Of a stretch of DNA of 64,000 nucleotides, positions 22,744 to 26,260 are shown piece by piece. This DNA comes from an uncultured Ignavibacteria bacterium (GTDB taxonomy: Bacteria > Bacteroidota > Ignavibacteria > Kapaibacteriales > Kapaibacteriaceae), in assembly GCA_903939735.1 (NCBI GenBank), contig CAJAIA010000023.1, forward strand, positions 1 to 64,000. Direction: 5' to 3'. The translations under genes were made by a program, and so were the position numbers. The notes under the pieces are model-generated. The model worked only from the letters and a program-made list of their open reading frames with translations, did no database searches and was not told where the DNA came from. Positions within the stretch are counted from its first letter, which is position 1, and the number at the start of each line of letters is the position of its first letter.

Positions 22744-23370
22744 CTAGACCGGGAGCGAGGTGCGCTCACGGAGCACGGCAAGGATGTCGTGGTGAATGAC
22801 GGCACGATCACGTGCTCCGTCAATAACAACCATCCGTGTGGGCTCATTCTGGGCGATAGCGAGGTAGCCTTCACGAACACGCTCGAAGAACTCTCGTCCC
22901 GCACGTTCCATTCGATCTGGCTCGCCGGCTCCCGTGTCGAAGTGCATGCGCTGTTGCGCTTGCTCAAAGGCCACATCGATGAAGAACGTCACGCTAGGCA
23001 TGACCCCACGAGTGGCGATTCGGTTACAGGTAGTTACGTTCTCCATGTCCAGCATGCGGCCATAGCCTTGATACGCCGTGGTGCTATCCACATACCGGTC
23101 GCAAAGGATAAGCGTCCCTTGCTCGAGTGCTGGCTCTATGACTTTCTCAACGAGCTGCGTGCGCGCTGCACTAAACAGCAGGAGCTCTGCTGTTGATGTG
23201 ATCGTCTGCTTGTTGCTGAGAAGGATCTCTCGGATCGATTCCGACAGGAGGGTTGCGCCAGGCTCACGGATCGTAACCACCGTCGATCCAGCCTGCTCAA
23301 GGACGTCACGGAGCAACACCAGTTGGGTGCTCTTTCCGCTTCCATCGATGCCCTCGAACGAGATAAACAT
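22744..23370 (-). CDS. tmk: Thymidylate kinase
   Basis: Tmk phosphorylates dTMP to dTDP. The 208-residue protein has the P-loop FEGIDGSGKSTQ (residues 4-15), the TREPG-like IREPGAT loop, the DRY segment LCDRYVDSTTAYQG, and a LID-like region (GAGEPDRMERAGREFFERV). The start overlaps the stop of the tadA-rsmI gene by one base (TAATG). Confidence 0.96.
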   Translation of the reverse strand: MFISFEGIDGSGKSTQLVLLRDVLEQAGSTVVTIREPGATLLSESIREILLSNKQTITSTAELLLFSAARTQLVEKVIEPALEQGTLILCDRYVDSTTAYQGYGRMLDMENVTTCNRIATRGVMPSVTFFIDVAFEQAQQRMHFDTGAGEPDRMERAGREFFERVREGYLAIAQNEPTRMVVIDGARDRAVIHHDILAVLRERTSLPV

Positions 23371-24566
23371 TACTCAGCCCCCTGCGTTGCCTGCGATACC
23401 ATTACGACAATCTCACCCTTGACGCCTCCGCGTGCACGAAGCATGGTCGAAACCTCACCTGCAGTTCCACGAATGTACTCTTCGTGCAGTTTCGAAAGTT
23501 CGCGCGCCACGACGACGCGCCGTTCGGATCCGCCGTAGAGCGCAATATCGTCGATGAGCTCGAGCAAGCGATACGGAGATTCATACATCACGACGGTGCC
23601 GTGATAGGCAAGGTGCGTTTGCAGAAACTGTGCTCGCCCCTTCTTCTGCGGCGGAAAACCGACAAAGCAGAACACGTCTGTCGGCAGACCCGATGCGGCG
23701 ATGGCCGTGGTAAGTGCCGATGCGCCGGGGAGCGCCACAACACGACACCCCGCTTCGATACACGCCTGCACGGCTCGATATCCGGGGTCGCTGATGCCAG
23801 GCATACCAGCATCGCTCACAAGCGCCACGCGCTGCCCTTGCGATACGCGGTACGCGATTTCCGATGCGCGTTCGCGCTCGTTGTGCTCGTGGTAACTCAG
23901 CAGGGTCTTGCGCGGCACATCATACTTCTTGAGCAGGGGGCTTGTATGGCGTGTATCCTCGCAGACAATTACGTCGGCCTCGCGCAGCGTCTTCACCGAG
24001 CGCAGCGTCATGTCTTCCAGGTTTCCAATCGGTGTTGGCACAAGCCACAACACCCCGGAGGGATGCGGCGCTGGCGCTGGTTGCTCAGACTGAACATCAT
24101 CACGTTCTCGTTGACGCGCAAAGAAGTCGCGCAATACGGCTGCACATTCATCCTCACAGATGCCCGTGCGAATAGTGGCCTGGTGATTCATTCGAGGATC
24201 ATCGAGCAACTCGAAGACGCTACGGCATGCGCCTGTTTTGGGATCAGCAGCGCCATAGACGACGGTTGGAATGCGTGCTAGGAGGATCGCACCAGCACAC
24301 ATCGAACATGGTTCGAGCGTGACGTAAAGCGTGCATTCGTCGAGGAACTTCTCTCCGATGGTACGCACAGCCTGCTCTATCGCGACTACTTCCGCGTGAC
24401 GCGTGGGGTCGCCCATGCGTTGAATCTCGTTCGCACCACGACCAACGATCTCGTCACCCCGTACGATGACGCATCCAACAGGAACATCGCCCAATCGACC
24501 CGCTTCTTCAGCGAGCACGAGGGCTTCCTGCATGAACTGTATGTGCTTGCGCGCGACTTCCGACAC
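23370..24566 (-). CDS. Fused tRNA adenosine deaminase (TadA) and 16S rRNA C1402 methyltransferase (RsmI)
   Basis: Two normally separate RNA-modifying enzymes are in one frame of 398 residues. Residues about 1-150 are TadA: HAE at 57-59 and PCSMC at 86-90 are the zinc/catalytic site that makes inosine at the wobble position of tRNA-Arg. After a Glu/Pro/Ala linker (about 152-171) comes RsmI, which methylates the 2'-OH of C1402 in 16S rRNA. It begins GVLWLVPTPIGNLEDM and contains CEDTRHT, LVSDAGMPGISDPG and LPGASALTTAIAASG. I chose the GTG at 24566, which follows the porD stop by one base and has AGGG eight bases upstream; an ATG at 24533 is the alternative. Both halves look intact. Confidence 0.9.
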   Translation of the reverse strand: MSEVARKHIQFMQEALVLAEEAGRLGDVPVGCVIVRGDEIVGRGANEIQRMGDPTRHAEVVAIEQAVRTIGEKFLDECTLYVTLEPCSMCAGAILLARIPTVVYGAADPKTGACRSVFELLDDPRMNHQATIRTGICEDECAAVLRDFFARQRERDDVQSEQPAPAPHPSGVLWLVPTPIGNLEDMTLRSVKTLREADVIVCEDTRHTSPLLKKYDVPRKTLLSYHEHNERERASEIAYRVSQGQRVALVSDAGMPGISDPGYRAVQACIEAGCRVVALPGASALTTAIAASGLPTDVFCFVGFPPQKKGRAQFLQTHLAYHGTVVMYESPYRLLELIDDIALYGGSERRVVVARELSKLHEEYIRGTAGEVSTMLRARGGVKGEIVVMVSQATQGAE

Positions 24567-24567
24567 G

Positions 24568-25479
24568 TTACTTACCCTGACGAGCTTCCTCGTACTGCTG
24601 CGTCTTGCCCGGATCGAGGAAGCGAAGATCGGCCCACACCTGTGGGGTAGCAATTCCACGGAAGATGTCGGCAATCTCGCCTGCCTTGGCATCGAAGAAG
24701 GCCTGGAGCACAACGCTTCGGTTGGAGATTTTTGTACGCTTGAAGGTTGCCATGTCATTGAGCACTTGCGTCAGTGCTGTTCGCCCTTCGTCCTTGTTCT
24801 CTGCGTAGATGTCAACGGCTTCGTGATAGTCGAAGAACAAACGGCGAAGCGCTTGATAGCGCATGTCGTTGAGTTCGGTTACCAATGACATCCGCGTGAA
24901 CTGTCCGGGCTGATAGACGGTGCTGAATTGGCTTACGCCTTGGGCATTACCGGTCTGCGCAATTGAAAGAGCTGCCTTATACATGTCCGTGCCGCCAAGA
25001 TCATCATACGTATCCATGTCGAGTCCGACGGCCAACATCATGTAGAAGTCGAGAACACTCGTAAAGTGATCGTAGCGCAATGGCTGGTATACCAGCGTTG
25101 GACTATTCGACCATTCGAAGGACCAGTCCTGATCGAAGATGCGGAGCATTCCGCCGCCGGTTCCAGGCGTATTGTTCACGAGGCGCTTCGATACAATCGA
25201 CAAGCGCGCTGTATAGCGATTTGCGTTGCGACCACTGATGTAGATCATCACGTCAACGGGGATACGCGGACCTTCCCAATCCACGCCAGTGTAGCGGTTC
25301 GACAGCAGGTAATTCTTCACGGTTTCAGCCATGAGCATCACATCCTGCCGCTGATCCAGCGTGAGCGTCTGCATGTCAACCTGCACGGTTGGCTCGAGCT
25401 CTTGTGCGTTCGCCGTCACGCACGGTGCAGAAAATCCCACAATCAGGGAAAGCACGAGGACAAGGATCTGGTTCTTCAT
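24568..25479 (-). CDS. porD: PorD-like (DUF4835) T9SS-associated protein
   Basis: The 303-residue protein has a signal peptide (MKNQILVLVLSLIVGFSA..., cleaved after NAQ). The DUF4835/PorD pattern is recognisable in order: YTARLSIVSKR, RIFDQDWSFEW, FTSVLDFYMMLAVGLDMDTYDDLGG, then RRLFFDYHEAVDIY and LQAFFDAKAGEIADIFRG. PorD was linked genetically to type IX secretion in Porphyromonas. It is periplasmic or membrane-associated with no known enzymatic activity. The ATG at 25479 fits the signal peptide. On the opposite strand an ATG at 25478 shares the same CATG, so the neighbouring exported genes diverge directly from this point. Confidence 0.85.
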   Translation of the reverse strand: MKNQILVLVLSLIVGFSAPCVTANAQELEPTVQVDMQTLTLDQRQDVMLMAETVKNYLLSNRYTGVDWEGPRIPVDVMIYISGRNANRYTARLSIVSKRLVNNTPGTGGGMLRIFDQDWSFEWSNSPTLVYQPLRYDHFTSVLDFYMMLAVGLDMDTYDDLGGTDMYKAALSIAQTGNAQGVSQFSTVYQPGQFTRMSLVTELNDMRYQALRRLFFDYHEAVDIYAENKDEGRTALTQVLNDMATFKRTKISNRSVVLQAFFDAKAGEIADIFRGIATPQVWADLRFLDPGKTQQYEEARQGK

Positions 25480-25531
25480 GAGATGTACCATACAATTACA
25501 GTGGTGGACGAATCTACGGAGCATCGCTGTG

Positions 25532-26260
25532 ATGGCGACGATGTTCCTGGTTGCATTTCGACTCTGCGCGCAAACGAGCGCAAGTGGATGCGGCATTCTC
25601 AACGAGTACGACGCCGCTGAGGCCCCCGCAGTGCCTGTGAGATCGGACGTCTACGTGCGTGCCCGTCCGGCACCGTTGGCACTTCCAGAACTGTCGTCTC
25701 TCCGCGTCGGTCTTGGGCTCCGCGACTACCATGCTGGCGCATGGCTTGATGGACGTGGTGGACCGGGGTGGACGGAGTTGATGCTGGGCGCACGGATCCG
25801 GTGGACCGTAGACTCGACGTTCGCGGTTGGTATCGCGCCACGCGTCCGCTCGCAGTGGTTCAGCGGGTTCACGTCCCGACATACGGCAACATGGGACGTC
25901 CACGCTGTGGCGGATTTCGGTTCGCTTCACATGGGCATTGCACTACGCGATATCCCCCTCCACACCCAGACATCACGTCCGTTCCTTCATACAAGCGCAA
26001 TGCTGGACATCGCAAACACGCGCGTTGCTTTTGACCTTGGCATGAACGCATCCGATGATCTTTGGGTGGGCCTCACTGCCGAGCTGCCCGTTACCGCCTC
26101 AATGCGTCTTACTGCATCCGTGCGAACACTTCCAACGTCGATGCACGCAGCACTCCAGATGCCAATCGATACCACGCAGTCGATTGCAGTGTCCTGCAGA
26201 TATCAGCAAGATCTTGGCATCACTCCAGAGCTCGTATGGATTTGGTGCTTTGGCGCGTAA
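25532..26260 (+). CDS. Exported outer-membrane-type protein, function unknown
   Basis: The protein has 242 residues from the ATG at 25532, which has GGAG ten bases upstream. A hydrophobic N-terminus ends RLCAQ. The body has alternating strands rich in aromatic ends (LRVGLGLRDYHAGAW, FAVGIAPRVRSQWFSG, MRLTASVRTLPTSM) and finishes LVWIWCFGA, suggesting a small beta-barrel. An earlier ATG at 25478 would give a better charged n-region for the signal peptide, but it shares its CATG with the porD start. I cannot decide between them. The last 25 bases overlap the start of the next gene, so the pair is coupled. Confidence 0.65.
   Translation: MATMFLVAFRLCAQTSASGCGILNEYDAAEAPAVPVRSDVYVRARPAPLALPELSSLRVGLGLRDYHAGAWLDGRGGPGWTELMLGARIRWTVDSTFAVGIAPRVRSQWFSGFTSRHTATWDVHAVADFGSLHMGIALRDIPLHTQTSRPFLHTSAMLDIANTRVAFDLGMNASDDLWVGLTAELPVTASMRLTASVRTLPTSMHAALQMPIDTTQSIAVSCRYQQDLGITPELVWIWCFGA

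Follow-up and report, generated by a model that had tools for sequence, protein, structure and literature searches.

The window analyzed here, a stretch of 64,000 nucleotides, raises the question of whether two RNA-modification enzymes, TadA and RsmI, are made there as a single protein, and, if they are, where this protein came from and what the joining may do. The open reading frame listing of the window has a single minus-strand frame running from 24566 to 23370 that encodes 398 aa, a complete TadA followed by RsmI; the first-pass annotation had read the two enzymes in one frame at this very place. The likely start of this tadA-rsmI fusion gene (23370–24566, minus strand) is the GTG at 24566–24564 and its stop the TAA at 23372–23370. 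A 462-aa open reading frame from 24758 was rejected: it extends the frame mechanically back into the gene upstream and finds no support in relatives. The likely GTG is 1 nt past the stop codon of a gene for a PorD-like type IX secretion protein (24568–25602, minus strand; NF052317, 156.1 bits, below its cut-off of 170), and the fusion stop overlaps, as TAATG, the ATG of tmk, which encodes dTMP kinase (22744–23370, minus strand; TIGR00041, 177.7 bits), so that the fusion gene lies within a tight gene string. This string mixes a PorD-like secretion gene with RNA modification and tmk.

By profile, motif, and PDB matches, both halves are intact TadA and RsmI domains. The TadA domain (tRNA adenosine-34 deaminase; 24093–24551, minus strand; residues 8–160 of the protein, P0001) passed the equivalog cut-off of NCBIfam NF008113 (153.9 vs. 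150 bits), and the RsmI domain (16S rRNA cytidine-1402 2′-O-methyltransferase; 23385–24053, minus strand; residues 174–396) passed that of TIGR00096 (220.4 vs. 167.9 bits); Pfam also assigns the deaminase and TP_methylase folds to the two halves. The fusion is found in 23 of 23 genomes of the family, and across these 23 proteins H59, E61, P88, C89, and C92, which make up the HAE and PCxxC zinc and catalytic motifs of TadA, are invariant, while the RsmI motifs PIGN, CEDTR, SDAGMPxISDPG, and LPG are invariant or nearly so. The identity of both domains and the intactness of their catalytic residues, as first annotated, are thus borne out. The closest PDB matches of the TadA half are the E. coli (1z3a, E = 2.3e-39) and Staphylococcus aureus (2b3j, E = 1.1e-38) enzymes, with which it shares the full domain, the zinc ligands, and the catalytic Glu, but it differs in continuing at the C-terminal end into another enzyme; to our knowledge, TadA proteins are otherwise single-domain. 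The RsmI half matches 5hw4 (E = 4.4e-55) and 9pzg (E = 6.4e-56), and unlike these it has TadA fused at its N terminus. It stops at about profile position 223–233 of 275–287, and so lacks the short extension that E. coli-type enzymes have at the C terminus. Asp254 of the SDAG motif, the AdoMet-pocket Asp, is invariant in the 23 fusions and, judging from the motif, is probably equivalent to Asp100 of E. coli RsmI, which is vital for AdoMet binding (PMC5053481).

The two domains are joined by a linker of about 17 residues (24054–24104, minus strand; approximately P0001 157–173) that contains no stop. The joining stretch, DDVQSEQPAPAPHPSG, contains Glu, Pro, and Ala, in agreement with the Glu/Pro/Ala linker of the first-pass annotation. 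The linker is unconserved in sequence, with a mean majority-residue frequency of 0.28 vs. 0.76 and 0.72 in the domains, and it measures between 16 and 52 aa across the 23 fusions. An AlphaFold2 model built from the 23 fusions has two folded regions, with pLDDT < 50 at residues 159–171 and a pTM of 0.52. The linker is therefore predicted to be disordered, and the pTM gives the TadA and RsmI domains no defined relative placement.

We searched the genome that holds the window (2.47 Mb in 45 contigs, estimated to be 100% complete) for separate copies of either gene, which the first-pass annotation had named as evidence that would speak against the fusion, and found none. In the profile search the fusion is the sole protein of the TP-methylase family (PF00590). 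PF00383 has four matches, namely the fusion, RibD, a cytidine deaminase of the tetrameric type, and a nucleoside deaminase whose score on the TadA model is just 46.9 bits (cut-off 150); the fusion is the only TadA in this genome. The TadA substrate, tRNA-Arg(ACG), is present (G000:C3:28098-28171, by Rfam and ARAGORN). There are 39 recognizable tRNAs, a list that is slightly incomplete in that a few tRNAs usual within rRNA operons are absent from it; the other Arg anticodons in it are CCG, TCT, and CCT, and none of the 39 is an Arg tRNA with a GCG or TCG anticodon. Reading of CGU, CGC, and CGA should therefore depend on inosine produced by the fusion protein. This shows that the substrate exists, the editing itself being putative.

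We consider it likely that the gene encodes a genuine bifunctional protein that arose once from a gene pair, in which a passive tether holds two independent domains and output is fixed at 1:1. The N-terminal TadA domain would deaminate A34 of tRNA-Arg(ACG) to inosine, the C-terminal RsmI domain would 2′-O-methylate C1402 of 16S rRNA on the 30S subunit, and the flexible linker would let each act on its own. A passive tether is favored over a conserved channel or interface because the linker is unconserved, variable in length, and predicted to be disordered, and because the domains have no defined placement. For the same reasons a shared route of substrate delivery, proposed in the first-pass annotation, finds no support; moreover, the substrates differ, being the anticodon loop of tRNA-Arg(ACG) for TadA and the assembled 30S subunit for RsmI. 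Among the points against this account, TadA is a dimer, and so is RsmI, and one polypeptide must satisfy both. RsmI has been reported to form a homodimer and to have the assembled 30S subunit for its real substrate (PMC5053481).

Could the joining instead have been favored by selection for guidance or regulation of one domain by its partner, for instance through TadA-bound tRNA or RsmI-bound 30S, so that tRNA editing is tied to subunit maturation? The fusion has been kept without reversal in 23 genomes of seven genera, and its fixation throughout a family could reflect a degree of selected coupling. Certain positions also distinguish the fusions from separate homologues: residues 34, 113, 117, and 121 in TadA are fixed or nearly so in the fusions and rare elsewhere, as are residues 235, 257, 271, 289, and 354 in RsmI, which are fixed. 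Thr113, Arg117, and Glu121 lie in the loop KTGACRSVFE (approximately 24204–24236, minus strand), where separate relatives mostly have Ala, Gly, and Asn, and which we take to be the substrate-contacting loop of E. coli TadA, the region mutated in base editors; this placement is a lead. However, such positions are confounded by shared ancestry, and common descent alone could yield them. Given that the linker is unconserved in both sequence and length, that the domains have no confident placement relative to each other, and that the two substrates are unrelated, selected coupling appears unlikely. A bolder form of the idea, in which the making of wobble inosine is physically tied by the fusion to late 30S maturation, for instance because TadA is parked on subunits as they mature or because mixed dimers form an assembly that regulates both, we regard as quite improbable; if it were true, ribosome output and the capacity to decode CGN codons would be set together.

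The DNA frame might also be fused while the cell contains two proteins, through internal initiation or cleavage of the linker. A disordered linker, as predicted here, would be cleavable, and the window does have GTG and TTG codons where the RsmI domain begins. The fusions share no conserved start codon at that position, however: in the genomes L013 and L014 the stretch between 40 codons upstream and 12 codons downstream of the domain start contains none, and the nearest ones in L021, L023, and L024 lie 27–35 codons upstream, inside TadA. We therefore think it improbable that the protein is made or kept as two pieces, and infer that it stays uncleaved. The suggestion in the first-pass annotation that fusion could fix the ratio of the two enzymes holds up, since the two domains share one polypeptide and the fusions have no conserved internal start for RsmI alone; with a single mRNA and a single polypeptide, output would be fixed at 1:1.

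The origin of the fusion is visible in related lineages. We compared 98 of 100 genomes from the other families of the same order (Kapaibacteriales), and in 86 of the 98 tadA lies upstream of rsmI with both genes on one strand of one contig, with a spacing within about 140 bp in 78 of these 86; in the remaining genomes the two genes are on different contigs (n = 10) or there is no tadA above threshold (n = 2). These separate pairs have the same genes, order, and strand as the fusion, but they differ in having a stop between the genes, and in most of them (77 of 86) rsmI is out of the tadA frame. At all 23 junctions that lacked ambiguous bases and were read closely, the tadA frame contains a stop, and in genus g37 and in G069 the tadA TAA is followed directly by the rsmI ATG. 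Apparent in-frame cases (G101, G105, G038, and five joined matches) were rejected because a stop separates the genes in all that were read (G103 excluded). The arrangement seems particular to the order: no tadA was found within about 1.5 kb on each side of 32 rsmI loci from the same phylum outside the order (31 places, one having been counted twice, and one locus being an RsmI paralogue), or within up to 6 kb of 72 loci of other organisms.

Because neighboring families carry the same two genes with a stop in between, a sequencing or assembly error that erased such a stop, a possibility raised in the first-pass annotation, has to be weighed, but it is refuted to near certainty by family-wide conservation, as the fusion lies in one open frame with no junction stop in 23 of 23 independently assembled Kapaibacteriaceae genomes searched, covering seven genera and protein identities to the window's protein of 53–97%. 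A TAG within the match in G018 was considered as a junction stop and rejected, being the natural end of the gene. The nearest fusion, 97% identical, is on L043 (CAMCXP010000013.1), a contig that bears the title Melioribacter roseus; other close relatives are labeled Candidatus Kapaibacterium, so L043 probably belongs to a mislabeled metagenome bin.

The protein tree is consistent with one fusion event. In the tree of concatenated domains the 23 fusions fall on one side of a branch, with one change (SH-aLRT = 92), and the tree of RsmI only gives the same result (one change, SH-aLRT = 98); the tree of TadA only is less resolved and has two changes, with weakly supported branches that are compatible with one origin. 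Across 258 genomes sampled evenly from the phylum there was no independent fusion among the matches listed; among these matches, TadA frames large enough to hold RsmI occur only in family members and in G150. The latter (469 aa) was rejected as an independent fusion since its RsmI is elsewhere on the contig. The frame that contains this TadA match (G150:C1:4092456-4092893) may be a fusion of TadA with something else or a long frame by chance. The simplest history, as far as the sequences allow it to be traced, is that the gene pair formed within the order and that the ancestral pair then lost its intervening stop once, at the base of the family; a frame shift would also have been needed if the two ancestral genes were in different frames, which is the case in most outgroups.

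A literature search of limited coverage returned no description of a TadA-RsmI fusion, and the publications it returned that name both proteins together with "fusion" or "operon" are, by title and abstract, reviews or surveys. The fusion puts two well-known enzymes into a domain architecture that is new and is stable within one clade; so far it adds an evolutionary detail and no new mechanism. It resembles RlmKL (YcbY) of enterobacteria, which has two rRNA methyltransferases in one protein, in that two RNA-modification enzymes that are separate elsewhere have been fused; it differs in that both halves of RlmKL act on 23S rRNA, whereas TadA-RsmI would act on a tRNA and on 16S rRNA. Because the unfused pair is still visible in sister families, this stable inheritance of a tRNA-modifying enzyme fused to an rRNA-modifying one is a clean natural example of the passage from operon to fused protein. 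In E. coli, TadA is essential and RsmI is dispensable. If TadA is essential in the window's genome too, then RsmI has been locked to an essential protein, TadA being present there only as the fusion. Should the domains be shown to influence each other, tRNA wobble editing would be linked to small-subunit maturation.

A second, diverged RsmI-like methyltransferase is present in three family members (G003:C7:61750, L032; G004:C21:245046, L031; G021:C7:77302, L030), with 33–39% identity and open frames of 615–685 aa. The order of G271 likewise has a second RsmI-like copy (about 39%).
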